Source: a virus. Taken from it: DNA of 64,000 nt. Position 1 is the stretch's first letter. Each line of letters opens with the position of its first letter. Positions 2 through 17,878 of this stretch are shown here, one piece after another. Below the pieces are notes generated by a model. It had not been told where the DNA came from. It ran no database searches and saw only the letters and a list, made by a program, of their open reading frames with translations. The DNA is taken from positions 1 to 64,000 of IMG/VR virus record IMGVR_UViG_3300037882_002640. One strand, 5' to 3'. A program made the translations under genes and the position numbers.

Positions 2-22
2 CTCTTAAAACTCTTATACTAA
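2..22 (+). CDS. C-terminal tail of an upstream gene (partial)
   Basis: The first bases read as six codons followed by TAA in one frame, and this TAA overlaps the ATG of the next gene as TAATG. The same stop-start overlap joins many gene pairs further along this strand, so this is probably the end of the previous tail gene. Nothing can be said about its product. Confidence 0.35.
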   Translation, partial: LLKLLY

Positions 23-3000
23 TGATAAAGTATTTTAAAATATTTATTTTTTTACTGTTTCCTATATTAGCCCAGTCGCAAGCAACTGTTTTAAGTTCTT
101 TTGGCGGTTATGGTGATATAGGAACTGTTACTGGTACCGGGCCTGTATTTACGATTACTGTAACGGGTTTCGTAGGTTCTCCTAGATTCCAAGCAGATGG
201 CCCTTATGCAGCCTTTGACGTATCTATAGGGGATGTTTTGTGGGCAGATTGTGCAAGATTCGTAGTTATGGGTATTTCTGCTCCTACGTTGTCAAGTGTA
301 ATTTTGACTGTAGAAGTACCTGCAAATGATTGGGCTTTAGGGGTTGGTGTTCCTTTTAATGGAACAAGGTGTGCTCTTGTACACGAAGAAATAGGTTTAC
401 TACCTGCTCTTCCCTCTCCTGCTGATGGTAATGCTGGTTCTTTGTCTGGTATAGATGTGAACCTCTATGCTTGTATGCAAAACCACTACAATCAGTCTTT
501 GTTAACTTCGATAAATAGTCTTAACGAAATTGTTGATTACACAGGTATCAAAGACGTTATTCCTGCGGTTGCTGCAAGCACTACTACCGGACAAACTTGG
601 AGAAATTCTGTTGGTCAATTATATTATTCTGATGGTGTTTCTTGGATGTCTGATTCAGATGTAAGATACTCTACTACTTCTTTACAAGGAGTTACAGCAG
701 GACTTTACAAAATAGGGATTGATACTGTTGGTGTTGATACTATGTACATTAATAATAACGGTACATTCCGTCGTTTTGAAGCGGGGGGTAGTGTGAGCCA
801 ATCTTGTTTGGATACTATTACGATTACAGGCATAACCCCAACCCCCGTTCTAGGCACTGCAATGGTACGAAACGGAACGGTGTGGGATAACATCTCAGGG
901 TACGTTCAATCAACTGCACCTGATGGTATGATTAGTTCCATACTAAGTCCTACTCAAGCAATAGTGCAATATTGCGGCTCGTTCTCAACTACTTTAGCAA
1001 CTGGGGCTTATTACGCAGATTCCATCTCTCTTACAGGCTCCACACAAACTCCACCTACCTCTGGTTTCGTAAGGCCACTTGGCCACGTTGCTGGCGGGCA
1101 GTTTATTGTATCTTCCCTCGGAACAGTCTTCTCAGCAGGAGGTTCTTCTGGTGGTGGTTCTACTACGGTTTTGGATGGCACTACACTGGATTTCACCCTG
1201 ACCGGACAACAACTTACTGGTGAGGTAAAGGTGCAGACGCTTGATTCTACGCACATAAAAGTAGGAGGAATAGAGTTAGAAGGATTGAGTCAGGATGGTG
1301 CTGCGATAGGGCAAATTCTTCGGTGGAACGGTACTGCTTGGGTTCCCGATACTGACTTGGCAAGGGAACAAAAGTACCGACTTCAATCTACTGCGCCTGA
1401 CACTACCTACACTTGGATAGACCAAAGTACTGCCGTATCAAACGTTGCAGATGTAAAAGATTATGTATTAGGCGAATGGGAGACAATTGGTTACTTTGAT
1501 ATTACTTCAAAAGCGTATTCAAACACACCTCCATTATACGTTCTTTCTTCGGGACAAAGCAATGCAACAAGTCGAGACGGCGGTGGGAATATAAGTACAA
1601 ATCCACTAAGCACGGTTTTTAATTATTTTACAAATTCATGGGAAATAGCAAGTCCGGGCAATGCTGTCTTTAAACCCCAACCCAATTGCTTTCCTTGTAA
1701 CAACTACGTTACCAATTTTGCAAAAGCGGCGAATGTTGATGGCCGAATTGTTAAAATAGTATCGTATTCCTTTGGAAACCAAAGCATTGGTCAATGGGCT
1801 GACCCGCCTCCGTCCCCTATGGGGGATAGTCTTTTGCTGGTGCTTAATAATTCCGGGATACCACGAGTTGACGTATTCCTATGGTTCCAAGGTGAAAGCG
1901 ACCACTTAATACCTCCTGCTGCATACCCCCCTCTTTTTCAAAACGTATTGGATAGGTTGGCGACTACAGGTAAATTTAATAAGCGCAGAACACCTGTGCT
2001 GATTGCCGAAATTCCCGGTGTAAACAACGCTATGAACGAAGCGTTCAACTTTCTTGCGAACGATACAATGTCTAACATTAGGGTTGTTCAAACAAGAGAT
2101 TTACCGTTGATTGACACAGACCACCTATCAGGTACAGGGTTAGAAGAGTTAGGAAAACGATTCTATGATGTTTTTGACAATGGATTAAAAACGAATGAAG
2201 ATATTTGGTCTTATCAATCCGACTTCAAGGCATACAATACACTAAAACGAAATATTGGCATTGGGGGAGAGGCTATAACCGGAGTAAAATTAAACGTTAT
2301 AGGTAGGGAAATAACAGTAGGTACAGATTTAGTAACAGCAAACGCTGATGTCTCAACGCTTTTAGACGGAACCAAAAACGGTTATTTCACAATGCACCCG
2401 TATTTATCTACGGCACAGCGAGTAATGGCTATTGGAGGCTTTATTGGCAGCAATAATAGTGAAATTGCTTTTGGTGGAGGTTCATCTGGTCATCAACCTG
2501 CTCAAAACGTATCTTTTTGGACAGGAGCATTCGGGACTTCTGGGGGCACTCCAAAAATGAACGTTGACCCATCAGGTTACGTGTGGGTACGAGAAAGGTT
2601 AGGTATCAATACTTTTTCTGGAACAGAAAGACTCACAGTCGATGGCAACGTAGATATAAGAGGCACAGCATCTCCTTATTTGCTATTAAAAAATGCTTTT
2701 CTACAGGCAGACGTTGACCAGTTTGCAAACAACGCTGGTGGAGATTATTACACCCTTAGAACACCCGTAGGGAAGGGAATATCTCTTTTTGTGGCGGGTT
2801 CTCCTGCTGCGGGAGTGGTTGTTGCCCCTAACTCTAATGTGGGCATTAATAGAAATGTGCCACTTAACACACTTCACGTTGGGAATCCCGCTGTTATAGG
2901 AACATCGGGCGTTAGGCATTCAGTTGCCAATTGGTTTTCAACAGGAATAAATGCGGATGGCGATGGTGTAGAAAGAGACGCGGTATATTTTCAAAGTAAC

Positions 3001-3273
3001 CTTTCCGTTGCGGGTGACATAACGGGAACGCTTTCTAATGCTCAAATTGCGCAACAAGGCGCGACAACAGGTCAGGCCCTTACTTGGAACGGTACTGATT
3101 GGGTTCCTACTACATTAGAAACTGTTCCAGCAAGTATTCCAGCAAATACATTTACAGGTAGCACATCAAGTGCTGCTATTGCTAATGCTGTTCTGGCTGG
3201 TAAAGTCGCTGGCGATAAAATATGGTGGAACATGGGCGCGGGTAATGGCATATCACTCTTAATTGTAAATTAA
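22..3273 (+). CDS. Tail-fibre-like protein with SGNH/sialate O-acetylesterase domain
   Basis: A 1083-residue protein. It starts with a clear signal peptide (residues 1-20: basic start, Phe/Ile/Leu-rich core, ending AQSQ). A central SGNH esterase of the sialate O-acetylesterase type shows GQSN at 511-514 (nucleophile Ser513), QGESD at 623-627 and a late Asp-x-x-His with His701. The flanking regions are Gly/Ser/Thr-rich and beta-like, and the element NGTxWVP occurs twice, which is typical of fibre linkers. The family removes O-acetyl groups from glycans, so this protein probably trims capsule or surface polysaccharide during adsorption (inferred). It is followed after 6 bp by a second SGNH fibre gene. 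The signal peptide is odd for a virion protein. The stop is TAA and there is no in-frame TGA. Confidence 0.8.
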   Translation: MIKYFKIFIFLLFPILAQSQATVLSSFGGYGDIGTVTGTGPVFTITVTGFVGSPRFQADGPYAAFDVSIGDVLWADCARFVVMGISAPTLSSVILTVEVPANDWALGVGVPFNGTRCALVHEEIGLLPALPSPADGNAGSLSGIDVNLYACMQNHYNQSLLTSINSLNEIVDYTGIKDVIPAVAASTTTGQTWRNSVGQLYYSDGVSWMSDSDVRYSTTSLQGVTAGLYKIGIDTVGVDTMYINNNGTFRRFEAGGSVSQSCLDTITITGITPTPVLGTAMVRNGTVWDNISGYVQSTAPDGMISSILSPTQAIVQYCGSFSTTLATGAYYADSISLTGSTQTPPTSGFVRPLGHVAGGQFIVSSLGTVFSAGGSSGGGSTTVLDGTTLDFTLTGQQLTGEVKVQTLDSTHIKVGGIELEGLSQDGAAIGQILRWNGTAWVPDTDLAREQKYRLQSTAPDTTYTWIDQSTAVSNVADVKDYVLGEWETIGYFDITSKAYSNTPPLYVLSSGQSNATSRDGGGNISTNPLSTVFNYFTNSWEIASPGNAVFKPQPNCFPCNNYVTNFAKAANVDGRIVKIVSYSFGNQSIGQWADPPPSPMGDSLLLVLNNSGIPRVDVFLWFQGESDHLIPPAAYPPLFQNVLDRLATTGKFNKRRTPVLIAEIPGVNNAMNEAFNFLANDTMSNIRVVQTRDLPLIDTDHLSGTGLEELGKRFYDVFDNGLKTNEDIWSYQSDFKAYNTLKRNIGIGGEAITGVKLNVIGREITVGTDLVTANADVSTLLDGTKNGYFTMHPYLSTAQRVMAIGGFIGSNNSEIAFGGGSSGHQPAQNVSFWTGAFGTSGGTPKMNVDPSGYVWVRERLGINTFSGTERLTVDGNVDIRGTASPYLLLKNAFLQADVDQFANNAGGDYYTLRTPVGKGISLFVAGSPAAGVVVAPNSNVGINRNVPLNTLHVGNPAVIGTSGVRHSVANWFSTGINADGDGVERDAVYFQSNLSVAGDITGTLSNAQIAQQGATTGQALTWNGTDWVPTTLETVPASIPANTFTGSTSSAAIANAVLAGKVAGDKIWWNMGAGNGISLLIVN

Positions 3274-3279
3274 AAAAAC

Positions 3280-5847
3280 ATGAAACATAAAAAGTATATA
3301 ATTTTATTTATGCTACTTCCTTTTATTTCTTTTTCACAAGGGAAAGGAGCAATTACTACAAACACTGAACCTACTGCTAATCAGGTATTAATATACAATG
3401 GTACAGAGTGGGTTCCCAAATATACAGATACGTTAACTGTTGTTTCGGATGGGCAATCTAATTCAGTTGGGCAAGGCGTTCCGTCTGGCTCGTTTACATT
3501 TAAAGCAAACTTAAAAGTTTGGAACAATACTGCATGGGTAGCACCAGTGCTTGGGCAAGCACCATTTAACCCGAGCGGTGCTAATAATGCTGCCTTGCAA
3601 TTTTGCGAAAAACTTGCACGAGAAAACCCTACAACCTTAGTTCGTCTTATTCAGACGGGCAATAGTGGTCAGCCAATTTCATATTGGATTAATGCACCTC
3701 AAACGGGATACACCACTACAAATTCTGCTGTTCTTGCTGCTCTTGGAGCAACTGGCAAGGTAGATGTACTGGTATGGATTCAGGGGGAATCGGACTACCT
3801 CCGAACTCCAGCCCAATACACAACGGATTTTTACACCTTACGAAGTTTGTGGATTAGTGCTGGCTGGCTCACACCTGCCACTAAACACTTGCTTGGTGGC
3901 TTATATATAGGTTCAGGGAGTACTTTAGGCTTCCAAGACGCCACCCTACGCGCAATAGGATTAGATAGTATTGTACAAACAGGTTATGCAAATCCGTTTG
4001 GGTTAACAACTTATGATAATCTACATTGGGATTCGCCTTCTCTTACAAAGTACGGTCAGGAGGTTTTGTATAATGCCTACCGAGCAACCCCCCACCCATA
4101 TACAAGTGGTACTTCTGGGATAGAAGGTACGATTAGCAACAATGTACTCGCAAAAGGTACTACTACAAACGGAATACAAAATAGTCGCCTCACAGACGTA
4201 TCAACACTGTTGACAATATCAGACCCGTTGACAAATACACTCCATATTGTTTCTGATGCTGCACCAACACAAGGACAAGGTAATGCAAAAATAAAGTTTT
4301 CTCAGCGTTGGGCTTCATCAATTGCTGCGGGTGGGGATGACTTTGGTACTGGTGAAATGCGTATGGTAAAGTCCACTGTCGTAAACAATGGCGGTACAGA
4401 CTTTGAGTTTTGGACAAGTGGATTCGGCGCTGGAGGATTAGCCAAGCGCGGTGCATTTACTTATGATGGTGCTGTTGATGCTGTTGCTGGCTTTCGTCAA
4501 GGAGGAACAGCCGCAAATGGTACTGTGCTTATTGGTGATGGCTCCGTATTTAAAGGACTTACTCCAACTGTTACACAAATTAATGCGTGGGGAGGAGTGT
4601 CAAGAGATAACTTGGGCGTTGACAATGGTGTATTACTAAAAAGCCCAACCGTTGTCAACGGAGCAACAACAGATACAACTCTTACTATGATACCGGGGGT
4701 TTTACCTTTATTACGAATGAGGGGGGGTATCGGCACTGGGCAAGGCCCAGTAATACAGATGTTCAAAGGCGGAAACTTGGCAATGGCGTTTGGGGTGAAA
4801 AGTGCATTTGATAATAGTAATAGTAATAACGGGGTGATTAATATCACAAACGGAGATTTTGATTTTTTGGGGCCAGCAGGTGACATGGTTACAGTAACAG
4901 CCGACAAAAATTTAATAATTCATGGTCAGGCTGGTGCAGGTGTTCATCTTGCTACTTTAAATACCAATGGCAAACTTGAAAGAAGCACAATTGACCCTGC
5001 AAATCTTGCAGTAAATCTTGACCAAGCCTACAACAACTTTGGGGCAACTGCCTCTAAGGTCGTAGTAGATGCGGCAGAAGGTCAAACAGGAGGATTAACA
5101 TTTGACCATTTTGGAGCCAATAATTACACTATTAATCTTAAAGGAACTGGTGATTTCCAAATCCGTGACTCAATCAACGCAACTACTAACCTTGCTGTGC
5201 TTAGGGTCTTCGACAACGGCTATACCTCAATAGGTACCCAACCACCCACTACCGACCAGAGACTATTAGTTACAGAGAACGGCACAGGATTAAAAGCCCC
5301 TGTGAGAATAACTAACGCAACAGAACCAGTAGACGGCGATGGTGTGTTTTTTCCTATGGGTGTTGGGTCTCAAGATAAGTTTGAAATCTCTACCTACAAC
5401 CCAGTGGGTGCAGTTGAAGAGGAAACTACAATTAGTTCTTACACGGGAAGTACTAAAATTCCTTCCTTAATACTTACCCCTGCAATTGCAGAAACCAGAT
5501 TCGAGAATGCTGTGGCTTACGAAGTCTTTAACGCAACTGCAACTACTGTTCAGTTAGACGGCAGAACATCTTATGTAGATGTTCCTTCTACAGGAACCAC
5601 TACTACAATGACGCTTCCTGAAATCGTTGCTGGGTTACCCGGAACAAATCAAGTGAGAGTAGGGTATGTCCTTCACTTAAGCGTAGAGAGGGCTGTTGCT
5701 GTCACAATTTCAAGATTTGGCAGTGATGATTTGATTTATGTAGATGGTGTTGCAGGCTCATCTACTTCAATTTCAACTACTGGTGGAACTTTCTTCGCAA
5801 AAAAGATTGTAGCCATCAGTGCTAACAAATGGGCAATATATCAATAA
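3280..5847 (+). CDS. Second tail-fibre-like protein with SGNH esterase domain
   Basis: An 855-residue protein with a signal peptide (about 1-20, ending SFSQ), then a YNGTEWVP linker, then an SGNH/sialate O-acetylesterase domain near the N-terminus: GQSN at 58-61, QGESD at 168-172 and DNLHWD with His249. The remaining 600 residues are beta-rich, low in charge and fibre-like. The domain is the same type as in the preceding protein but sits close to the N-terminus instead of mid-protein, so the two are not simple duplicates. The likely role is deacetylation of host surface glycan at the tail tip (inferred from family and position). The TAA stop overlaps the next ATG. Long antisense frames here are shadows. 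Confidence 0.8.
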   Translation: MKHKKYIILFMLLPFISFSQGKGAITTNTEPTANQVLIYNGTEWVPKYTDTLTVVSDGQSNSVGQGVPSGSFTFKANLKVWNNTAWVAPVLGQAPFNPSGANNAALQFCEKLARENPTTLVRLIQTGNSGQPISYWINAPQTGYTTTNSAVLAALGATGKVDVLVWIQGESDYLRTPAQYTTDFYTLRSLWISAGWLTPATKHLLGGLYIGSGSTLGFQDATLRAIGLDSIVQTGYANPFGLTTYDNLHWDSPSLTKYGQEVLYNAYRATPHPYTSGTSGIEGTISNNVLAKGTTTNGIQNSRLTDVSTLLTISDPLTNTLHIVSDAAPTQGQGNAKIKFSQRWASSIAAGGDDFGTGEMRMVKSTVVNNGGTDFEFWTSGFGAGGLAKRGAFTYDGAVDAVAGFRQGGTAANGTVLIGDGSVFKGLTPTVTQINAWGGVSRDNLGVDNGVLLKSPTVVNGATTDTTLTMIPGVLPLLRMRGGIGTGQGPVIQMFKGGNLAMAFGVKSAFDNSNSNNGVINITNGDFDFLGPAGDMVTVTADKNLIIHGQAGAGVHLATLNTNGKLERSTIDPANLAVNLDQAYNNFGATASKVVVDAAEGQTGGLTFDHFGANNYTINLKGTGDFQIRDSINATTNLAVLRVFDNGYTSIGTQPPTTDQRLLVTENGTGLKAPVRITNATEPVDGDGVFFPMGVGSQDKFEISTYNPVGAVEEETTISSYTGSTKIPSLILTPAIAETRFENAVAYEVFNATATTVQLDGRTSYVDVPSTGTTTTMTLPEIVAGLPGTNQVRVGYVLHLSVERAVAVTISRFGSDDLIYVDGVAGSSTSISTTGGTFFAKKIVAISANKWAIYQ

Positions 5848-7616
5848 TGAAACACTTAACTTTAATGTTTTTAGTTTTGGGGAGTAACTTGTATGGACAG
5901 GTTACTTTCCCCATTACGCCTGAAAATAGTATCTTACCTGTATCCTACCAACCCCCTCCTACAACATCTGCATCACAATGCGTAATGTGGGACGGAGATT
6001 CTTGGGAGTACACAGATTGGGATACTCACGGGCCTACCTTGTTCACCTCTTGGGGGTTGAATAACTTTGACGGTACTTGGGCTTCCTTGACTGGAAAACC
6101 AAGCACTTTCACCCCTTCTGTTCATAACCATACTATTGCAGAAATTACAGGACTCCAAAATGCTATTGATGCAAAGCAAGCCACTTTGGTAAGCGGAACA
6201 AATATTAAGACTGTAAACGGAATTACCTTACTTGGAGCAGGAGATATTACAGTTGGCGGAAGTGTTGCTTGGGGTTCTGTTACAGGAACTTTGAGCAGTC
6301 AGACTGATTTACAAAATGCGCTAAATGCTAAACAAGCAACCCTTGTTAGCGGTACAAACATCAGGACAATAGAAGGCCAAACTTTACTTGGTTCGACTAA
6401 TATTGATTTGGGTGCAAGTGATGTCGGTTTAGGTAATGTTACAAATGAAAGTAAAACAACGATGTTTGCCAGCCCAACTTTTACAGGTACGGTGTCTGGT
6501 GTCACTGCAGCCCATGTCGGTTTAGGGAATGTCAATAACACCTCTGACTTAAATAAACCAGTTAGTATAGCAACTCAAACTGCTTTAGATACTAAACACC
6601 CAGACATTACCTTTCAAGAAGAAGGTGTAGGATTGGGCAGTGCTGGCACGGCCACTACTGTAAACTTTACAGGGGCAGGTACAGCATCTTTTGCAGGAAA
6701 TACCCTTACTGTCAATATTCCGGCTGCTGGTTTAGGTGATGCTGTGATTGCAAACGGTCTTCAACAGTTTACAGGAACTACAAATGCAAATTTTGTAAAT
6801 CAAACCACCGTGCCTACAACCCCATCAAGTGGTAATGTTAGACTATACTCACAAGATGATATCGGAAAAATAAGATTCGTAGATGCAAATGGGCGAGTTA
6901 ATAGGTTAGAAGAGCACAGTGGGTTTTCCAACCAACGTCTCTGGTTGCCTAGTTCTGGTACTGGTGTTTCGGCAATAGGTTCAGCACCTACTAACTCTGG
7001 TACGGTATCTAATCCTACTTTGGCCACAACGTCTTTGAAAACCTCCTTAGACAGATTTACGGTAACTTCTGCCACAACAGCAGGGGCATTGGCTTATAAC
7101 AGGTCTGCTAAGTTGGAAGTTTTCAGAGGCAACGCAGCAGGCAGGGGAGGTTTCAATATGGTTGCCACTTTTAGCCTCTCCACTCTTCAGACAGGAAATA
7201 GATTTTTCGTAGGATTAAGCAGCACTGCTAACGTCAACCCCACAAATATAGACCCACTCACGAGTACAGCAGGAAGTAAGGTGGGGTTGGCCTTTAATCT
7301 CTCTACGGGAAATTTACAACTTGTTAATAACGTCAATCTAACCGCACCTACTGTACTAGATTTAGGGGCAAGTTTTCCGGTTAACAACACTAACGTTTAC
7401 AGACTTCAATTGTTCGCAGAGCCAAACGGTTCTTCGATTAATTACATAGTAGAAAACCTAACAACTCCCGCTACTGCGAGTGGTAGTTTGGCCACCAATA
7501 TTCCTGCAAATACAGATTTCCTTGGTAGGGTTATTTGGATGACAAACAACACAATTGCTGCATCTGTTGCCTATGACGTATCTAACTTCTTTTTAGAAAA
7601 TAAAATTTATCCGTAA
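5847..7616 (+). CDS. Tail fibre protein with repeat linkers
   Basis: A 589-residue protein. The start at 5847 is chosen because it overlaps the previous TAA (TAATG) and begins directly with a signal peptide (MKHLTLMFLVLGSN, ending YGQ). An in-frame ATG 18 bases earlier is unlikely. Two copies of a motif of the form LQNAxxAKQATLVSGTNI occur around residues 95-190, followed by two VGLGNV elements. These are familiar in phage tail fibres of many kinds. The C-terminal third looks like a beta-sandwich binding domain but was not recognised. Probably a receptor-binding or side-fibre component. The TAA stop overlaps the next start. Confidence 0.75.
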   Translation: MKHLTLMFLVLGSNLYGQVTFPITPENSILPVSYQPPPTTSASQCVMWDGDSWEYTDWDTHGPTLFTSWGLNNFDGTWASLTGKPSTFTPSVHNHTIAEITGLQNAIDAKQATLVSGTNIKTVNGITLLGAGDITVGGSVAWGSVTGTLSSQTDLQNALNAKQATLVSGTNIRTIEGQTLLGSTNIDLGASDVGLGNVTNESKTTMFASPTFTGTVSGVTAAHVGLGNVNNTSDLNKPVSIATQTALDTKHPDITFQEEGVGLGSAGTATTVNFTGAGTASFAGNTLTVNIPAAGLGDAVIANGLQQFTGTTNANFVNQTTVPTTPSSGNVRLYSQDDIGKIRFVDANGRVNRLEEHSGFSNQRLWLPSSGTGVSAIGSAPTNSGTVSNPTLATTSLKTSLDRFTVTSATTAGALAYNRSAKLEVFRGNAAGRGGFNMVATFSLSTLQTGNRFFVGLSSTANVNPTNIDPLTSTAGSKVGLAFNLSTGNLQLVNNVNLTAPTVLDLGASFPVNNTNVYRLQLFAEPNGSSINYIVENLTTPATASGSLATNIPANTDFLGRVIWMTNNTIAASVAYDVSNFFLENKIYP

Positions 7617-8887
7617 TGAATAAAATATTCTTTTTTACACTCTTACTGCTTTTTGCGGGAACTCTTAATGCTCAGGTAGTTTCTGTAGGTGGTGCAACTC
7701 CCAACGTAAGACCTGCTCTTACTATCCGGGCTACTCAATTTGCACAAGATACTTTTCTTGCTACTGAAAAAGCAGTGAGAACTTCGATAGATTTGTCTGC
7801 AACCCGTAACCTTAAGACTATTACTCAAGTTGCTCACGGCTTCACTGTAGGGCAGTGGTTGTATTTTGATGGTACGCAGTATGATTTAGCCTCTACATCT
7901 TCACTAACGACTTTGAATACTGTAGGAGTTGTTGAGCAAGTAATTGATGCTAATAACTTTGTGGTTGTTACAAGCGGTATCTCGACAATATTTACGGGAC
8001 TAACCCCAAACACTATTTACTATCTTGATGCAACAGCAGGGGCCATCACTTCTGCAAAACCTTCAAATAATATAAGAGTAGTTTTAACAAGCCTAAACAG
8101 TACAGACGGACTTGTTAACCAATACTCAACTGCGGATGATGCAACTACACAAGCCCTTACATCAGGTAGAGTAAATGCTTTATTAGATTTAGCATCTACT
8201 ACTCATATTAATACAGACCCCGGTACGAAAATCCCTTTTACGGGGACAGTTTATACAAATGGAATGACTACAAATGCTGGTAGTATCATTCCTAGCGTGA
8301 CGGGAAAGTACAGGGCAGATTGGCTTTGTATGGCAGCAAGTACTGAATTTTTAGCGGATGGTATATTCTTTGTTGTTCAAAATGGTGTAAGTGTAGGTCA
8401 AGTCTCATACAATATGAACGAAGCAAGTGCTGTAAATCAAAGTGCTGGTTTTATTGATGTTGACTTGGTGGCTAACCTACCTGTTAGTCTTCATTACAGA
8501 ACAAGGCATACAACCACTGATGGTATATCTTGGGATAGAGGTTCTTATTTTCAACTTACTCAACTTCCAACAACAGTAACTACGGTTTTGGATGGTACAA
8601 TACAGGCGTTAGACCAATCCTCAACAGGATACTTTGATATAGGTAATATGAGAATGCAATGGGGAACAGGAACTACAAATGGCATAAGTAATGTTACATT
8701 GCCAGCAGTCTTTGCTAATACCAATTACCGCGTAACAAGTTCTTTTGCTGGTAGTGGGTCGATTGTAGTAAATCCAACTGGTACAAAAACCACAGCAACA
8801 TTTCAAGTAAATTCATTTTTTGCACCTGATGGTGGGCCAAGTGGTTCTGTTAGTTTCAATTGGTTTGCTATTGGACAAAAACCTTAG
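7616..8887 (+). CDS. Tail fibre protein with gp53-like C-terminal domain
   Basis: A 423-residue protein with a signal peptide (about 1-19, ending NAQ). The middle region is beta-rich. The last 90 residues contain the pattern G-x-MRMQWGT ... VTLP..F.NTNYRV, which fits the gp53-like C-terminal domain of phage tail fibres, a small beta-sandwich often at the tip of receptor-binding fibres. This is the fourth consecutive large tail gene with a signal peptide. The stop is TAG, 4 bp before the next start. Confidence 0.72.
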   Translation: MNKIFFFTLLLLFAGTLNAQVVSVGGATPNVRPALTIRATQFAQDTFLATEKAVRTSIDLSATRNLKTITQVAHGFTVGQWLYFDGTQYDLASTSSLTTLNTVGVVEQVIDANNFVVVTSGISTIFTGLTPNTIYYLDATAGAITSAKPSNNIRVVLTSLNSTDGLVNQYSTADDATTQALTSGRVNALLDLASTTHINTDPGTKIPFTGTVYTNGMTTNAGSIIPSVTGKYRADWLCMAASTEFLADGIFFVVQNGVSVGQVSYNMNEASAVNQSAGFIDVDLVANLPVSLHYRTRHTTTDGISWDRGSYFQLTQLPTTVTTVLDGTIQALDQSSTGYFDIGNMRMQWGTGTTNGISNVTLPAVFANTNYRVTSSFAGSGSIVVNPTGTKTTATFQVNSFFAPDGGPSGSVSFNWFAIGQKP

Positions 8888-8891
8888 TAAA

Positions 8892-9092
8892 ATGAAAACA
8901 ATGATTTACAGTACAATTAGCCTCGCATTTATATCCACTATGGGTGGTTTGTGGAGTACTTTAATAAGTATTACTGGAGGTGTATTGTTTTTATTAGTAC
9001 AGCTTACCACCCTCAAAGAAAAAATAAATACTAACCATGAGGGCAGTTTGTCTAAATGGATTAAATCGGTATTTTTTAAATGGAAAAAATAA
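8892..9092 (+). CDS. Small membrane protein, holin-like in form
   Basis: 66 residues. The start at 8892 follows the preceding TAG by 4 bp. A longer reading from 8820 would lie inside the fibre gene and is rejected. The protein has a hydrophobic stretch (about residues 8-40, one or two membrane passes) and a very basic C-terminus rich in Lys and Trp. Size, hydrophobicity, basic tail and position before other membrane genes fit a class II-like holin, but no family-specific motif is visible. Its stop overlaps the next gene by 13 bp. Confidence 0.6.
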   Translation: MKTMIYSTISLAFISTMGGLWSTLISITGGVLFLLVQLTTLKEKINTNHEGSLSKWIKSVFFKWKK

Positions 9093-9367
9093 TAACTATA
9101 TTATCTGTATTTGCTATCGGGTACAACACAATGCAATTTTCAAAGGTATTGTTTAAAAGTAAAGTTAAATATGATTATCCTAACGTTTTTGTAACAACAA
9201 AAATAGTTCTAAGTTCTTTACTTGTGTGTTACTTGCAAGTACTATACTCCACACTCTTTGAAAACTATATTCCGACACCAGGGCAAACAAGCGCTAATTT
9301 CTTAGTTGCTTCATTGCTTACGTTAGGAAATTTTATACATAAAAACTACATATTAAATAGGGAATAA
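9080..9367 (+). CDS. Small membrane protein
   Basis: 95 residues with an N-terminal hydrophobic segment (about 4-18), a middle one (about 41-60) and a third near 72-86. Not recognised. It overlaps the genes before and after it (13 bp and 1 bp), so it is translationally coupled to two other membrane proteins. It may belong to a lysis or envelope-passage cassette between the fibre and neck genes (inferred only from context). Confidence 0.6.
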   Translation: MEKIITILSVFAIGYNTMQFSKVLFKSKVKYDYPNVFVTTKIVLSSLLVCYLQVLYSTLFENYIPTPGQTSANFLVASLLTLGNFIHKNYILNRE

Positions 9368-9825
9368 TGAGATATTTAATTCTTTTATTGCTTGGGCTCG
9401 TAGCTACTATTTGCGGGGCTCAAGACACCATTACAGTAAGCGACATACCGTCTCTAAGTCTTAAAGAGACTTTAGGAATTGATAGTCATAGTTTACCTGC
9501 AGTGTTGGTTGCTAATATATTAATAATTATAGGGTTTTACTCTCCTATACTTTACAACTATGCTGTAGCTGGCAAAATAGAAAGTACTTTTCTGCAGAAG
9601 AAACAATTGATAGCTATGAATATACTCATGTCTATAGTAGCTACTACCCTAGTGCTAATTCCAAGTTTAGTTTCTTTGCTCAGTAGTGTCGGATTTACTT
9701 TTGATGTTGAGAACACCAAGCCAGCATTTGTTATACTAGGGGGTTCCTTATATTTGGCTAAGTTGAATCAAAAACTACTTAGCGATAAAACAATACAAGA
9801 TAATGACAACAGAATTAACCTGTAG
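9367..9825 (+). CDS. Membrane protein with signal peptide
   Basis: 152 residues. Residues 1-18 form a signal peptide ending CGAQ, like those on the four fibre proteins upstream. Two further hydrophobic segments follow (about 45-65 and 85-108), and the C-terminus is polar. No family recognised. Third gene of the membrane-protein trio; the end overlaps the next gene by 23 bp. A role in lysis or in anchoring to the envelope is possible but unproven. Confidence 0.6.
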   Translation: MRYLILLLLGLVATICGAQDTITVSDIPSLSLKETLGIDSHSLPAVLVANILIIIGFYSPILYNYAVAGKIESTFLQKKQLIAMNILMSIVATTLVLIPSLVSLLSSVGFTFDVENTKPAFVILGGSLYLAKLNQKLLSDKTIQDNDNRINL

Positions 9826-10243: not shown

Positions 10244-11477
10244 ACTCTCTTTAAAGTATTTTAAAGATAAAACTTATATCATAGATGTCTGCTCAGATGA
10301 AGTCAAGAAAGCGTTAGGGTACTACCTAGCTAGCACTACTGAATGTGAATATGATTATTCTAAGGTAAAATGTTTTACTGAGGACTATAAACCATGCGTA
10401 AAAACGGAATCAATGACTTGCGAGGATCAGATTACTTTTGCATTAAGTAAAGTATCCACTCCCTGCAACTTTAGGGCAGATGTTGTTAATCCTTTAGATA
10501 ATTCTAAGTATGCTGAACTTACTTTAGTTAACAATCTAGTGTATCAAAATGCTACACTTAAGACTAACTTTATTAATAATTGTAAATTCAGCACTACATC
10601 CACTGTAAACAGTGGATGCTCATCCGTAACCTGTGTTCCCGAGTTTAATCCTTTCTTTGAAACCTCTGTAACCCTGCAGAATGTTTTAACAAACGCTAAT
10701 GGTTTCATAAAGGATATAAGACTGTTTAGAACCGAGAATAATGGTAGTAGCCCTTTAACTGCTATTAGTGTAGATATATCCCCAGCTAATTTTGCTAGTT
10801 GGAATTCCTGTGGTACATGTGTAAGCTTTTACACAGCTGCAGACTTACTATTTGGTAGTGTGAATTTTACAGCCGCTTTAACGGATATTTTGAATAATGT
10901 CGCAAAGACATTACTTGGAGGGAATTTCTCTGAGTTTACGGTTAAGAAATCCGGCAATGATGTTATCATATCTTCTAAGGTTAAACACAATCCTAATAGT
11001 TATTGGGTAGGTATAAACCCTGATTCCTGCTTTATCAGTTGGGTTAATAATGCTAGCGCTCAAACGAATATAGAGTTTGCTCCCCGCTCAACCCTTCTAA
11101 GAGTTGAGAATACTGCTTATGCTAGGATGTATAGTAGTTTATCTTATTATACTCCTTGCGGCAACTACAATTTCGCTGTAGATTTCCTCCCTTTATGGAG
11201 TGTGAATACATCAGCCACTAATATAAACTTCGCCAGTTTACTCTCTAGTAAATCAAATACTCCGTTCACCATCACATATCCGTTGTTACCTTGTTTAGCC
11301 ACTACGCTAAAAGCAACAGTAACTACTAATGGGGTGATAAATACTAGGGCGTGGAGAGATTCTAGTAATCTACTACTATCCTCAACTAACGAAGCTATTG
11401 TGTATTCCCCTGGAACATACACATTTACAGCCACAACTAATAATGGCTGCACACAATCAACAAGCGCAATAGTGTAA
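10209..11477 (+). CDS. Cys-rich beta protein, probable tail component
   Basis: 422 residues, starting at an ATG inside the end of the preceding gene. About 16 Cys are spread over the first 200 residues, and the rest reads as beta-rich. The last 80 residues (T..GVINTRAWRDSSN, then YSPGTYTFTATTNNGC) resemble an Ig/PKD-like extracellular repeat, a fold common in phage and Bacteroidota surface proteins. No enzyme motif seen. The TAA stop overlaps the next ATG. Probably a virion surface or adhesion protein. Confidence 0.62.
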   Translation: MNVQNAACALSRLSLKYFKDKTYIIDVCSDEVKKALGYYLASTTECEYDYSKVKCFTEDYKPCVKTESMTCEDQITFALSKVSTPCNFRADVVNPLDNSKYAELTLVNNLVYQNATLKTNFINNCKFSTTSTVNSGCSSVTCVPEFNPFFETSVTLQNVLTNANGFIKDIRLFRTENNGSSPLTAISVDISPANFASWNSCGTCVSFYTAADLLFGSVNFTAALTDILNNVAKTLLGGNFSEFTVKKSGNDVIISSKVKHNPNSYWVGINPDSCFISWVNNASAQTNIEFAPRSTLLRVENTAYARMYSSLSYYTPCGNYNFAVDFLPLWSVNTSATNINFASLLSSKSNTPFTITYPLLPCLATTLKATVTTNGVINTRAWRDSSNLLLSSTNEAIVYSPGTYTFTATTNNGCTQSTSAIV

Positions 11478-11917
11478 TGAAACTTAAACTAGTAAGAAAG
11501 ATATTTTTAGAAGACAGAGTTATCAGTAACCTATATATAGATGGAGTTCTATACTGCCAAGTATTAGAGGATACTGATAGAGGTCTAGACTCTAAAATGT
11601 CTTTAGATGAAATTAAGAAATTAAAGATATGGGGCAAGACTTGTATACCTTACGGTACATACGAAGTCATTATCTCATTCTCTAATAAATTCCAAAAGAT
11701 GCTTCCACTACTGGTTAACGTGCCAGGGTACTTAGGGATAAGAATACATTCAGGTGTGCTCCCTGAACACACAGAAGGCTGCTTACTTCCTGGTGTCTAT
11801 AACAACGGAGAATTCAAAAATTCCAGAATTATGACTACCAAGCTTATCTCCTTAGTAGAGAAAGCGAAAAAGCGAAGCAAAATCACCATTGAAATCACAA
11901 AAGAGGTAACCAGTTAA
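11477..11917 (+). CDS. DUF5675 family protein
   Basis: 146 residues matching the DUF5675 pattern: a short beta start, LYIDGVLYCQVLED, then W-GKT-IP-GTYEV, then P-LxNVPGYLGIRIHSG followed by HTEGCLLPG. The conserved His, Thr and Gly-Cys in the IRIHSG/TEGC segment suggest an enzyme-like site, but the activity of the family is not settled. It is found in phages and Bacteroidota. Last gene before a terminator whose stem contains its own TAA. A role in lysis or cell-wall contact is possible. Confidence 0.75.
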   Translation: MKLKLVRKIFLEDRVISNLYIDGVLYCQVLEDTDRGLDSKMSLDEIKKLKIWGKTCIPYGTYEVIISFSNKFQKMLPLLVNVPGYLGIRIHSGVLPEHTEGCLLPGVYNNGEFKNSRIMTTKLISLVEKAKKRSKITIEITKEVTS

Positions 11918-11936: not shown

Positions 11937-11968
11937 CTGTAAACTCAAATAACATAAGATATTTGTAT

Positions 11969-12643
11969 ATGAAAACAATAGAGCATGTTTACGCTATAAA
12001 AAATATTCTCTCTAAAGGAGAGGTTTCAGACGACTACTCCTACTCTAATAAATTAATACTTCACTTTTTAGAGGTATCCAGAGCTAGGCTAATCGAAGAA
12101 AAAGCAAATAAGTACCACCACATCTCAGAACAATCTTATTCATCACTTTGTATGGATTTAGAGAAAGGAACTTTTCACAACTGCTGTACTGGCCCTGATG
12201 ATAAGTGCTTATTGAAATCAGTAAAAGAAATACCAAAAACTATAAATACTAGGTTTGGAAACTTAACTAAGGTTACTGACCTAGCTGGTAATGTAATACC
12301 CATGGGGAGTATAACTACAGACTCTTTATCCCAATACTCCATAACAGCTAAGAATAGCACTGTATGGTTTATTCATGATAGTAAACTATACATCAAGAAT
12401 AATAACGATTTAGAGAAAGTGGTTGTAAATGGTCTTTTCCTTAATCCAGAAGATTCTCTGGAAGAATGTCCAGACTCGACAACTATTAACTGTCCTAGTT
12501 ACTTAGATACAGAGTTTCCAATAGATAGTGATTTAATTGACGCTATGTACCAACTCACCCTGCGCTACCTAACACTGCCAGTACAAAAAGATTTAATGAA
12601 TGACGCAAGAGAAAATATGGAAGGTGGTCAACCTCAAGGATAG
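11969..12643 (+). CDS. Neck/ring-type structural protein (crAss-like)
   Basis: 224 residues. ATG 11969 is preferred over an upstream TTG. No enzymatic motif. It has an alpha-helical start, a middle beta region with Cys, and an acidic helical C-terminus. First gene after the terminator and in the place where crAss-like phages encode ring or connector proteins just before the tail hub. Function is assigned from gene order rather than from a motif. Its 3' end overlaps the next gene by 44 bp. Confidence 0.55.
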   Translation: MKTIEHVYAIKNILSKGEVSDDYSYSNKLILHFLEVSRARLIEEKANKYHHISEQSYSSLCMDLEKGTFHNCCTGPDDKCLLKSVKEIPKTINTRFGNLTKVTDLAGNVIPMGSITTDSLSQYSITAKNSTVWFIHDSKLYIKNNNDLEKVVVNGLFLNPEDSLEECPDSTTINCPSYLDTEFPIDSDLIDAMYQLTLRYLTLPVQKDLMNDARENMEGGQPQG

Positions 12644-13040
12644 TTATAAAGACTACAAGGAAGAAGTAGATTATAATACCTATAAGAAAGTTATATATGC
12701 TATGTATGATATCATGATGGACAATATGATGAACAAAGGAATAGTGTATAAATTACCACATAATATAGGTGTTATAGGATGTTTCCAAAGAACTACCTAT
12801 GGACGAGGAGTTATGGATTTTAAACTTCATAAAGAGACTGGAATAAAAAGATATATTAAGAATTATCATTCTGAAGAAAGAGTAATAGTATTTAATTTGG
12901 ATACTTCATACCACTCTGGTATAACTAACCAATTCCGTAAACTGTATAAGTTTACTGCCTCTCGCTCTAGAAAAAGACAACTCGCTAGCATTATTAAATC
13001 AAAAGTAGATATTTGCACCTACAACAATTTAGATGAGTAA
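12600..13040 (+). CDS. Conserved neck-region protein, unknown
   Basis: 146 residues, basic (especially the last 50, with SRSRKRQ). The element KGIVYKLPHNIGVIGCFQR followed by charged beta strands is of the kind seen in small neck-region proteins of crAss-like phages. I cannot name it. It sits between a ring-type protein and the tail hub, overlapping both (44 and 8 bp), which supports a role in virion assembly. Confidence 0.55.
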   Translation: MTQEKIWKVVNLKDSYKDYKEEVDYNTYKKVIYAMYDIMMDNMMNKGIVYKLPHNIGVIGCFQRTTYGRGVMDFKLHKETGIKRYIKNYHSEERVIVFNLDTSYHSGITNQFRKLYKFTASRSRKRQLASIIKSKVDICTYNNLDE

Positions 13041-13731
13041 AACAAATTATATTTCAATAAAGTCAGTATTATTTGACTTAAGTACCTTATTAGAAGATAG
13101 GTACTATAACCAAGCTAAAATGCTTGAATGGGCAGTTAAAGGTTATCAGTCTTTGAAGTTAGAAGATAAGTTCATTAAGAAAGTATTTCACTCTAAAGTA
13201 GATAATCACAAAGTTCAGTTACCTATAGATTTGAAGTTCATACTAATGGTAGCTTTAAAAGATAAGGACAGGGTTAGAGCACTAGTTCCTGCTAGTACAC
13301 AACTAACTATGGAAAAGTGTTTACTTCCTAATACCTGCCATAATTGCAAAACTGACTACACTGTAGATCATAACTTAGTTCTAACCCTAAGTAGTAATGA
13401 AGGGGATGTCTATGTTGAATATTTAGCCTATCCTACAGAGGATGGAGAGTTCTTAATACCAGATCATGAAGATGTAAAGGAAGCTATCGTTAACTATATC
13501 TTATGGAAATACTGGCTATCTAAATCTTTAATGAAAGAACAAGGAGCAGACAATAAGACAGAGTATTTTAGAAACCTATATGTTATGTACTCCAACAAGG
13601 CTTTGTCCTTATCAATGCCTGATGTTGGGCAAATGGAGAACATTAAACGACAGTTTAATTCTTTAGTTCCTAAGGATGATTTCAGTAACCTGTTTGTAAC
13701 TTTAAATAACCAAGAAAATGGAAACAGCTAA
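13033..13731 (+). CDS. Tail hub/adaptor protein (P22 gp4-like)
   Basis: 232 residues. The N-terminal pattern LEWAVKGYQSL, then beta-strand LPIDLKFILMVAL, a central Cys pair (NTCHNC), and a helical C-terminal half fit the head-tail adaptor/hub proteins that crAss-like phages share with podoviruses. Directly upstream of the muzzle protein, as expected for a short tail. Such proteins form a ring below the portal. It overlaps its neighbours by 8 and 14 bp. Confidence 0.65.
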   Translation: MSKTNYISIKSVLFDLSTLLEDRYYNQAKMLEWAVKGYQSLKLEDKFIKKVFHSKVDNHKVQLPIDLKFILMVALKDKDRVRALVPASTQLTMEKCLLPNTCHNCKTDYTVDHNLVLTLSSNEGDVYVEYLAYPTEDGEFLIPDHEDVKEAIVNYILWKYWLSKSLMKEQGADNKTEYFRNLYVMYSNKALSLSMPDVGQMENIKRQFNSLVPKDDFSNLFVTLNNQENGNS

Positions 13732-16700
13732 CTTACCTATAAAAGGTTTAAATACAGATGTCTTGGAAAAATTCCAAGAAGAAGGAACCTACAGGTTTGC
13801 TTTGAATGCGGTACTTGAAACAGAAGATGGGGATTTAAGGGGGATATCAAACGAGCATGGAACTACTCTTTGTAATACATCCTTTCCAGCAGGTAAGAAG
13901 GTGATTGGTCACGTATTAACTGATACTAGTGATATAGTATTATTTCTATTTGATCCAGCGACTGTACGACCAGCACATGAGATAGGAATACTCAATTCTG
14001 AATCCTGTGTTTACACAACCATTGCTAGGGGGGAGTGCTTAAACTTCAAAAGGGAAAATCAGATAAATGCTATATTCAGGATTAAAGACGGGTGCACTAG
14101 ATATGTTTACTTTACCGATAATTTAAATCCTTACAGAGTAGTTAATATCACTGATACTACTGATTGGGTTAATCAGACAACTAAGAATATTCTTAGCTGC
14201 GATAAAATTAAATTTACTCGTGATGCCCCACCCCCACAGATTACTGGCTATAACTTAAATGGTTACGATAGCGGTGTAGCTGACTTTGGTGGGGTACTGG
14301 AGTATGGAACTTATTCCTTCTCATTTAGATACCTAGATTATGATGGTAATCCAACTGATTGGATTCAACCCACTAGGTACTTCCCTGTAATGACTGGTCG
14401 CCGTAGCGATTTAGAGAATGACAGGACTGCCGCTTTCCACACAGGGGCTGTAAATGTGAGTACAGAAAATGGATATAGACCAGCATCTGGAAAGTCCATT
14501 GCTTTGAATATAAACAGATTAAGTACACAATTCTCCCACTATGAAATTGCAGTAATTAAAAGAGGAGCATCTTCTGGAGAGATTACTGCAGTTAACATCC
14601 TACCTAAGAAGCCTATCCTTAACCCAAGCAATCTATCTTTAGTATCAGATGTGTTTATCTACACTGGTGGAGAGTCTGTAGTATTATCTTCCTTAGAGGA
14701 GATTTTCTCAGAGACTGTTAAGTTGGATAGGGTGGTAGCACATACTCAAGCAGACAATAGATTATTAGTTGCTGGAGTAACTAATCCAGCAAGAGATTAT
14801 ACTGGATTCCAACGACATGCCTCCTCTATAGAAACAAGGTGGCTACACCAAGCACAGGATATCTTTATGGCTAATTCCAAGTCCGCTACTGGATACCAGC
14901 TTTTTAGTGGGTTAATGCATGATGAGGTATATGCTTTTGGAATTGTATACGTGTTTAAGGATGGCAGCACTTCCCCAGTATTCCATATCCCTGGCAGAAA
15001 GATTGACATTACTACCCCTTTACTAGCAGGCAATGTACACATAACCGATAATAACCCGTTAGACTCCTTCACCTTACCAAATACTGACCCTAACATATTT
15101 GATATTAATGTTGATAAGAGGTGGCAAGTGTATAACACTTACACCAAATTAAACAGTACTGCTACAGAAGGGTACATGGGGTACTACGAAAGTAGTGATA
15201 CCAATTACCCAACTAAAGTAATTCCTTGTGATACTAATCCCGATGGATACTGGGGTAGAGATTTTTCAGGTGATTTACTAACGGGTAAGATAAGGCATCA
15301 TAGAACCCCAACATACTCTCCAAAAACAAGTTTGGGTGGTAATTTTGTAGGAGAGCATGACATATGTGGTGTTAAATTTATAATGGATGAAGAGTATCCA
15401 CACTCAGATATTATTGGGCACTATTATGTTAATGGGGATAGAAGTTCAGGAGATAAAACTGTATTAGATGTAGGGGTGTTATCGAGGAGTTTGTTATCTC
15501 CAGATGAGGGATCCCCTACGCTCTTCCCTAATTCCACATTCTCAGACTTGGCAAGTATTATTAACGATAGCAGGTTTAATGGTGGAACTACTACAGAAAC
15601 TAAGGATCATTTTTTCCTATCTAATAAAACTCAGTATTTAGAGAAGATGGAAGAAGGTTCTTATTTAAGAGTATTAGATTTCATCATATCAAAAAATTTA
15701 ACTACTGTGGCCAATGCAAGCGCCCAGTTTTACCCTCCTAATAAAACTGTAGATTTAAATGTAGTTAGAGATTTTGAGCAGGACTGGTTTGCTCGTCCTT
15801 TAGCTAATTTCAACTATGATATTGAAGGCTCTGCTTACTTAGGAAGGAGTGTTAACTACTTAAATCGCACTAGTGTAGGTGGGGTGGGATTCTTTGAAGG
15901 TAATAGTGTAACAACTATAAACGAGGAGAATATGGTTAACCGCTCATCTTCTATAAATCTTGGGGTTGTCTCTTTAGATAGAGGGGTTGTAGGCCCAAAT
16001 ACTACTACGAACTGCTTAGCTAGAGTCGCTATAAAAAGCCATAGAAATGTATTCAATACTCTGGACAAGATTATATACAAAGCACTAGGAACTACCTATG
16101 CTATTAAAGCCCCAGGAGTTACTCTTAATACTTCAATCTATAGCGGGGATATAATAAACTCCCAACCTTACTTCTCAGAAAGTTTTATTGTTGAAAATAA
16201 TGCTAATACATTCTTCTCGGATTATAGTTTCCTAACTGTAATACTCGAATCAGACATCAATACTACAAGTAGATTAAACGATAGGGAGAACAACACATTT
16301 AAACACTTCACTGGTGGCTACACAATATTCGATGCTACTGCTGACTCGTTACTTTCCTATCTAAAAAGTAAGTTACAAACTAGTGGAGATGTCATTACAT
16401 ATGACTACGAAAGGCATTACTACTCTAAAGCATATGATTTTTTCCAGTCTGATAAACCTTACTTCCCATTAGATGAGGACTTTAATGTTTGTAATGAATG
16501 TTATGATGAGGAGTATCCTTACAGGATATACTACTCCCAGCAAGATACCTTAGAGAGTGGTAGGGATTACTATAGGACTATACTTCCCAATAACTATAAA
16601 GATTTAGATGGGTACATAGGGAAGATTACAGACTTATTCACATTCAAAAGTAAGTTGTTTGCTTTAACTACTAATTCATGTGTGATGCTTCCTTTCCGCC

Positions 16701-17878
16701 CACAAGTAGTTCAAACTAATGAGGGAACTGCGTATATAGGTGCTGGAGAATTCTTATCTCTACCATTAGTTCCCCTTAAGACTACTGACTACGCATTTGG
16801 TGGAACTTCCCATTTTAAGTCTAGAGTAATTACAGAGTATGGGGCAGTGTTTGTAGACGACATATCTGGAAGACCTTTTGTAGTGGATGAGAACTTAACT
16901 GACTTATCTTTATCTGGTATGCGGAACTTCTTCCAGCAGGAAGGAACTCTCTCACTAGTAAGTCAGATGAAGTCTAAGGGAATCAACTATAATATCTATT
17001 CTACCTCATCCCCTGTAGGTGTTGGTTATATAACTACCTATGAGCCTAGATTTAAAAGATTAATAATCACTAAGAAAGACTTCTCTATCCTCCCTTCCTT
17101 CTTATCCGCGTTTAGCTTCACAACTACACCAATTAATAATACCTTATCTTGGGATGGCGCAAGGTTTGTTTACAAGGATAACAATGGAGTGCTATCTTAC
17201 CCTGAATTAAGTAACCCCTTCTTCTTTGAGAATAAGTCCTTTACTCTGTCCTTCTCTTTCCTAACTAACTCATTTGTATCTTTCCATAGTTATCTTCCAG
17301 AGTACCTGTTTAATAACTATCGTAACTTCTTCAGTAACTCACTTTACAAGCACACAGGAGACTACCAGTATTACTATGATAGAAAGTATGATTTTGTTGT
17401 GGACTATATTGCTAATCTAAATACTAAGGAGATAAAAACATTCTCTCATGTAACTCTTCGTAACAGAACTTACTACAATGGGTTTACTAATAATACTTTT
17501 GATAGGATATTAGCTTACAATACTCATCAATCTAGTGGGGTTATATTTTTAGATAAGGATAAGAACTTTGATTTGTCCCATAATAATCTGTACTCCCCTG
17601 TAAAGTCAGTGGGCGATACTTATCGTATAAATGGACTAAGAGATAATACTATTAGTAATTCTTTACCAATATGGGACTACTCTTGGACTACTAAGTCTCA
17701 GCAATACTATATTGATAAGTTACCTAATATACTTAACATTAATACCAATCCTAACCTATTCGAGCAACAACGATTAAAGGATTACTACTTAGGATTGAGG
17801 CTATTCTACAAGCCTGTTTATAATGAAAAAATAACTGTGGACATCTTAGATACCACCTATTCAAATAGAAATAGATAA
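13718..17878 (+). CDS. Tail muzzle/stabilisation protein
   Basis: 1386 residues. The first 100 residues match the crAss-like tail stabilisation (muzzle) protein: a KGLNTD-like start, EEGTYRFALNAVL, a GxxRGISNEHGT segment, then IGHVL and a beta-propeller-like body. The region around 925-1010 has NECYDEEYPYRIYYS, then a TDLFTFKSKLFALT strand. In crAss-like virions this protein closes the tail tube, analogous to P22 gp10. No signal peptide and no enzyme motif. The TAA stop overlaps the next ATG. All Trp codons are TGG. Confidence 0.8.
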   Translation: METANLPIKGLNTDVLEKFQEEGTYRFALNAVLETEDGDLRGISNEHGTTLCNTSFPAGKKVIGHVLTDTSDIVLFLFDPATVRPAHEIGILNSESCVYTTIARGECLNFKRENQINAIFRIKDGCTRYVYFTDNLNPYRVVNITDTTDWVNQTTKNILSCDKIKFTRDAPPPQITGYNLNGYDSGVADFGGVLEYGTYSFSFRYLDYDGNPTDWIQPTRYFPVMTGRRSDLENDRTAAFHTGAVNVSTENGYRPASGKSIALNINRLSTQFSHYEIAVIKRGASSGEITAVNILPKKPILNPSNLSLVSDVFIYTGGESVVLSSLEEIFSETVKLDRVVAHTQADNRLLVAGVTNPARDYTGFQRHASSIETRWLHQAQDIFMANSKSATGYQLFSGLMHDEVYAFGIVYVFKDGSTSPVFHIPGRKIDITTPLLAGNVHITDNNPLDSFTLPNTDPNIFDINVDKRWQVYNTYTKLNSTATEGYMGYYESSDTNYPTKVIPCDTNPDGYWGRDFSGDLLTGKIRHHRTPTYSPKTSLGGNFVGEHDICGVKFIMDEEYPHSDIIGHYYVNGDRSSGDKTVLDVGVLSRSLLSPDEGSPTLFPNSTFSDLASIINDSRFNGGTTTETKDHFFLSNKTQYLEKMEEGSYLRVLDFIISKNLTTVANASAQFYPPNKTVDLNVVRDFEQDWFARPLANFNYDIEGSAYLGRSVNYLNRTSVGGVGFFEGNSVTTINEENMVNRSSSINLGVVSLDRGVVGPNTTTNCLARVAIKSHRNVFNTLDKIIYKALGTTYAIKAPGVTLNTSIYSGDIINSQPYFSESFIVENNANTFFSDYSFLTVILESDINTTSRLNDRENNTFKHFTGGYTIFDATADSLLSYLKSKLQTSGDVITYDYERHYYSKAYDFFQSDKPYFPLDEDFNVCNECYDEEYPYRIYYSQQDTLESGRDYYRTILPNNYKDLDGYIGKITDLFTFKSKLFALTTNSCVMLPFRPQVVQTNEGTAYIGAGEFLSLPLVPLKTTDYAFGGTSHFKSRVITEYGAVFVDDISGRPFVVDENLTDLSLSGMRNFFQQEGTLSLVSQMKSKGINYNIYSTSSPVGVGYITTYEPRFKRLIITKKDFSILPSFLSAFSFTTTPINNTLSWDGARFVYKDNNGVLSYPELSNPFFFENKSFTLSFSFLTNSFVSFHSYLPEYLFNNYRNFFSNSLYKHTGDYQYYYDRKYDFVVDYIANLNTKEIKTFSHVTLRNRTYYNGFTNNTFDRILAYNTHQSSGVIFLDKDKNFDLSHNNLYSPVKSVGDTYRINGLRDNTISNSLPIWDYSWTTKSQQYYIDKLPNILNINTNPNLFEQQRLKDYYLGLRLFYKPVYNEKITVDILDTTYSNRNR

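Follow-up and report, generated by a model that had tools for sequence, protein, structure and literature searches.

Tailed phages are understood to assemble their virions in the cytoplasm, and in P22 and T4 it is established that tailspikes or fibres can join particles outside cells. The DNA analysed here (the window) comprises bases 1-64000 of the linear IMG/VR virus record IMGVR_UViG_3300037882_002640 (94,810 nt). An earlier note on this DNA had singled out five genes near its start, named here by their first nucleotide (22, 3280, 5847, 7616 and 9367), as encoding tail-module proteins with Sec-type signal peptides of the form common in Bacteroidota. The Crassvirales phages phi14:2 and crAss001 and relatives from IMG/VR resemble the window phage in tail rings, muzzle, large terminase (TerL) and gene order, but their fibres lack signal peptides. 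Cellulophaga phages phi10:1 and phi19:1 (Assiduviridae), phi39:1, phi13:2 and phi46:3 (Pachyviridae) and phage Ingeline (Duneviridae) do carry, like the window phage, consecutive fibre-block genes with signal peptides that obey the Bacteroidetes Q-rule, i.e. with glutamine at the predicted +1 position, and several proteins of these blocks are recorded in virions by tandem mass spectrometry (MS/MS). These phages are not crAss-like, however, and their blocks show no similarity to the window proteins and encode pectate lyases instead of acetylesterases. In their database records examined here the signal peptides are unmentioned.

The acetylesterase tailspikes of Salmonella Vi phages (Vi01, Vi II-E1, Kayfunavirus) have a SASA/DUF303 domain homologous to that of proteins 22 and 3280, with the same motifs. 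The DUF303 domain is also that of Tsp2 of Vi01, which targets the acetylated Vi capsule (PMC3220722). The Vi-phage spikes differ in being ordinary cytoplasmic virion spikes, and the Kayfunavirus fibre examined has no signal peptide. Porphyromonas gingivalis phages, like the window phage, encode proteins with Q-rule signal peptides, but these are the products of five genes of unknown function that were not described as tail fibres (PMC10367356). No report of signal peptides on tail fibres was found in the literature on the subject, of which few subscription papers were covered, and the P. gingivalis phage proteins were the nearest case (PMC10367356).

Approximately 71% of signal peptidase I substrates in Bacteroidetes expose a glutamine at +1, which is then cyclised to pyroglutamate (PMC5837995). 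Signal peptides were predicted here with a rule-based scorer of our own, not SignalP. It considers a positive n-region, a hydrophobic core, small residues at -1 and -3 and the residue at +1, and gives glutamine a bonus. All five genes (5/5) were scored as signal peptides with glutamine at +1. The N-termini, with the predicted cleavage marked by a slash, are MIKYFKIFIFLLFPILAQS/QATV for gene 22, MKHKKYIILFMLLPFISFS/QGKG for gene 3280, MKHLTLMFLVLGSNLYG/QVTF for gene 5847, MNKIFFFTLLLLFAGTLNA/QVVS for gene 7616 and MRYLILLLLGLVATICGA/QDTI for gene 9367, and by the scorer each has the positive n-region, hydrophobic core, small -1 residue and +1 glutamine of a Q-rule substrate. When residues 2-40 were permuted 20,000 times for each protein, the observed score was reached in at most 0.13% of permutations, and none of 371 internal methionine positions in the same genome scored as a signal peptide (0/371). 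Chance hydrophobic N-termini were thereby ruled out. Mis-called starts were ruled out as well, since 22, 5847, 7616 and 9367 each begin within a TAATG that also holds the preceding stop codon and no plausible alternative starts were present; 3280 starts 7 nt past the previous stop. Scorer, permutation and internal-methionine controls agree, and the presence of a Sec signal peptide of the Q-rule type at the start of all five genes, as proposed in the earlier note, is confirmed.

The assignment to the tail module held for four of the five. Genes 22, 3280, 5847 and 7616 have fibre-type domains and lie in the tail module, and judged by their sequences they are fibre- or spike-like and make up all the visible tail-fibre-like proteins of the window phage (Table 1). 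The 22 and 3280 proteins have intact SASA/CE6 motifs (GQSN, QGExD and DxxH) and are predicted acetylesterases, which agrees with the action on glycans proposed in the earlier note. The 3280 protein matches tail fibres of Salmonella and Mesorhizobium phages at 30-31%. The 5847 protein matches phrog_13925 (E 2.5e-51) plus several tail-fibre PHROGs, and its C-terminal 290 aa match Rhodobacter phage RcCWillis at 39%, this domain being common to fibres of unrelated phages. No shared N-terminal domain was found in a comparison of the four. Gene 9367 has neither a fibre-type domain nor a tail-module position, and its product gave no Pfam family above the cut-off. With several membrane spans and a place next to two other small membrane proteins, it probably belongs to the lysis cassette and not to the tail. 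Kinship with a signal-bearing 151-aa gene of contig G003 was dismissed, the two not being alike. Signal-bearing fibre blocks tend to adjoin probable lysis genes.

Beyond the window phage, the same scorer detected signals in the fibre blocks of some unrelated Bacteroidota phages and none on the fibres of crAss-like relatives. Q-rule signals were found on the fibre blocks of the isolates phi10:1, phi19:1, phi39:1, phi13:2, phi46:3, Ingeline and Nekkels. GenBank annotates phi10:1 gp91-gp94, phi39:1 gp25-gp26 and phi19:1 gp101-gp104 as virion proteins by MS/MS, and 9 of these 10 proteins have Q-rule signals; the exception, phi19:1 gp104, has a signal-like start without the glutamine. The expectation that virion proteins should not be exported finds no support in these fibre-block proteins, which have both signals and virion annotation, and secretion and virion membership are therefore not alternatives. 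Fibre-like proteins with Q-rule signals were also found in the unrelated viral contigs G022, G023 and G024. Of 33 fibre-like proteins with a signal, which come from 11 phages or contigs and have 24 distinct signal sequences between them, 32 have glutamine at the predicted +1 position. This count leans to glutamine via the scorer bonus, but the isolates' proteins were listed by fibre-block gene position. After cyclisation of the glutamine the predicted mature N-termini include pyroGlu-GVAPLVDQVR (phi19:1 gp101), pyroGlu-VEQVEAVVLAK (phi39:1 gp25), pyroGlu-TTDVVK (phi10:1 gp91) and pyroGlu-TVEGTVGSDGSLIPYNVSGGLDETAVDTK (phi10:1 gp94).

Contig G023 is a relative of Flavobacterium phage 11b, and the 11b fibre gp46 is split in it: the gp46 anchor (residues 4-147) is a separate gene of 225 aa, and the body (162-516) lies behind a signal peptide. 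At this locus of the split (L305 11520-15412) the signal-bearing gp46-like body also has an added acetylesterase domain. Signal-bearing fibre-like proteins were further seen in proteobacterial-looking DNA, namely contig G025 (58% GC, L123 1958-5932) and a Sphingorhabdus metagenome-assembled genome (L223 2716-4284), and the trait may therefore extend past Bacteroidota phages.

The signals on fibre-block proteins are genuine and selected. Although phi46:3 gp81 and phi10:1 gp93 are 93.5% identical over a body of 707 aa, they have different signal peptides, and the same exchange of signal for signal was found between phi13:2 gp87 and phi39:1 gp26 and between phi13:2 gp84 and phi19:1 gp101. Compared pair by pair, the signal codons of the pectate-lyase set differ by 30 synonymous and no nonsynonymous changes, the pairs not being independent; in the other two signal sets the amino acids vary. 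Cellulophaga fibres have short N-terminal modules in common, the signal peptide included. The adjacent fibre genes gp81 and gp82 of phi46:3 (L322 9671-12371) have the same signal-peptide module, which suggests duplication of the N-terminal module.

No fibre signal peptides were found in 20 IMG/VR late-region loci of the nearest sampled relatives, in phi14:2, in Flavobacterium phage Fpv20 or in crAss001. The fibre-block genes of phi14:2, which are without signals, carry MS/MS annotation. Only 2 of 530 complete genes in the sets of crAss-like relatives score as Q-rule signal proteins, and neither is a fibre. A general property of crAss-like fibres is ruled out by the signal-less fibres of the relatives. 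The signals are not a property of the domains either, since they are missing from nearly every other protein with the 5847 C-terminal domain and from most proteins with a SASA domain, nor of all Bacteroidota phages, since the fibres of phi12:1, phi17:2, phi38:1, phi46:1, P2559Y and FCL-2 have none. The early region of phi14:2 encodes two Q-rule proteins, g001 (L007 3-266) and g002 (283-1278), one of them with an OmpA domain.

We favour the explanation, to which we give a probability of about 0.5, that the four proteins are fibres or spikes which bind or modify glycans and carry working, selected Sec/signal peptidase I signals, and that they are exported, processed and joined to virions at lysis. 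Late in infection the fibres would be exported to the periplasm, where the signal would be removed, the new N-terminal glutamine cyclised and the fibres folded, and they would attach to finished particles once the contents of periplasm and cytoplasm mix at lysis. The two fibres with acetylesterase domains would remove acetyl groups from a surface polysaccharide, like the Vi-phage spikes. Among the three options of the earlier note, processing before assembly fits best. On a broader scale it is conceivable, at somewhat short of even odds, that several unrelated tailed Bacteroidota phage lineages no longer finish their virions in the cytoplasm, the tail fibres being exported by Sec, matured by host signal peptidase and glutaminyl cyclase, and fitted to particles at or after lysis.

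Several points weigh against the proposed export and attachment. We infer both steps throughout, and virion membership of the window-phage proteins is argued by analogy, since these have no sequence in common with the Cellulophaga proteins. The MS/MS evidence consists of annotation in GenBank and not of the underlying peptides, and proteins that were exported might be carried along when particles are purified. Signals are missing from the fibres of the crAss-like relatives sampled and from those of several further Bacteroidota phages, and export is therefore unnecessary for fibre assembly generally. As the record begins 21 nt upstream of gene 22, whose open reading frame (ORF) is 5'-open at the record edge, and stops inside the major capsid gene, the stretch between these two genes is absent from it and could hold further fibres.

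The main rival explanation is that the proteins are free exported enzymes or adhesins derived from tail fibres, which co-purify with particles. They would be periplasmic and either released at lysis or active earlier on surface glycans, they would block superinfection or re-adsorption to debris, and their presence in virions would be carry-over. The splitting of the 11b fibre in G023, with the anchor gene apart from the signal-bearing body, agrees with this, and from it we had first read signal-bearing fibres as purely non-virion, a reading weakened by the MS/MS notes. The acetylesterase of the 3280 protein begins about 30-40 residues past the signal peptide, which leaves scant room for an N-terminal anchor. 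The ordinary, signal-less fibres of the sampled crAss-like relatives also fit free enzymes, as does the proposal that the Q-rule proteins of P. gingivalis phages modify the host envelope (PMC10367356). However, MS/MS annotation places nine to ten such proteins of three phages (phi10:1, phi19:1 and phi39:1) in the virion, the only recognisable module fibres of these phages are among the signal-bearing proteins, and these proteins have conserved N-termini with swapped bodies, as virion fibres do. We consider free enzymes unlikely, yet the secreted-enzyme option of the earlier note is a live one.

Alternatively, the signals might go unused, either because folding is too rapid for Sec to act or because the hydrophobic segment has the role of an anchor or trimer plug, with assembly in the cytoplasm and an intact N-terminus. 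This would explain presence in virions without a new assembly route, and the crAss001 fibre gp22 does dock through its N-terminal residues 1-26 (PMC10172136). The gp22 N-terminus is not signal-like, however, and the near-constant glutamine at the predicted +1 position despite 24 different signal sequences, as well as the replacement of signal by signal in the N-terminal swaps, make unused signals quite improbable. Display on the surface of the infected cell would suit exported proteins with adhesin or esterase domains but found no specific support and is very improbable, since the Pfam scan detected no C-terminal sorting domain of the type IX secretion system (T9SS), by which T9SS cargo was dismissed, and the four fibre-like proteins have no lipobox.

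The window phage is crAss-like, judging from homologues of the crAss-type ring, muzzle and terminase proteins, which were found in order, and its large terminase shares 33% identity with the terminase of Cellulophaga phage phi14:2. No TerL-based relatives were found in GTDB genomes, so the host is placed only to the level of Bacteroidota. For genes 22 and 3280 and for the muzzle, exact-peptide searches returned no relatives. GroEL is encoded beside the terminase (L003 8669-10237); phi14:2 encodes GroEL too. The two cysteine-rich hub-candidate genes adjoin ring 2, like crAss001 gp38-gp40, and match genes of relatives at 31-32% over 90 aa. By eye, crAss001 gp30 (annotated as L,D-carboxypeptidase/transpeptidase) looks like a homologue of the DUF5675 protein. 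A single ORF of 5264 aa (21726-37520) lies between cargo-type genes and the strand switch, in a place that in crAss-like phages is occupied by virion RNA polymerase proteins. At least three further Q-rule signal peptides are encoded in the record beyond the tail module; the three small early/middle-region proteins that bear them (Table 1) are candidates for envelope modification. Lipoprotein-like starts were also seen outside the tail module, at 71794(-), 75986(-) and 61117(-).

Table 1. Features of the virus record, with coordinates in nucleotides
Feature	Coordinates	Strand	Details
Fibre/spike-like, 1083 aa	22..3273	+	Q-rule signal peptide 22-78; central SASA acetylesterase ~1546-2169; PF03629 E 1.6e-10
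Fibre/spike-like, 855 aa	3280..5847	+	Signal peptide 3280-3336; SASA acetylesterase ~3451-4059; PF03629 E 2.1e-8
Tail-fibre-like, 589 aa	5847..7616	+	Signal peptide 5847-5897; fibre repeats; C-terminal domain ~6798-7601
Tail-fibre-like, 423 aa	7616..8887	+	Signal peptide 7616-7672; gp53-like fibre C-terminus ~8654-8875; PF21882 E 7.6e-6
Two small membrane proteins, 90 and 95 aa, probable lysis cassette	8820..9367	+	Putative function, from sequence and position
Membrane protein, 152 aa	9367..9825	+	Q-rule signal peptide 9367-9420; about three further hydrophobic spans
Cys-rich probable tail-hub genes, 146 and 422 aa	9803..11477	+	No signal peptide; putative assignment
DUF5675 protein	11477..11917	+	PF18925 E 1.7e-24
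Ring 2, IHF-like, ring 1 and muzzle genes (crAss-like tail anchor)	11963..17878	+	PF25702, PF24228, PF25731; no signal peptides
Small Q-rule signal-peptide protein, early/middle region	73516-73196	-	Also a lipobox-like Cys
Small Q-rule signal-peptide protein, early/middle region	74678-74388	-	Own scorer
Small Q-rule signal-peptide protein, early/middle region	83191-83520	+	Own scorer

If true, export of fibres and their attachment at lysis would mean a different assembly route, a host-dependent maturation of receptor-binding proteins and a fibre supply tied to the timing of lysis. The Cellulophaga phages in culture, and perhaps already available proteomic data, allow this to be tested, and it has consequences for the expression and annotation of receptor-binding proteins from Bacteroidota phages. 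Attachment at lysis, if shown, would be more than a matter of tail fibres with export signals.

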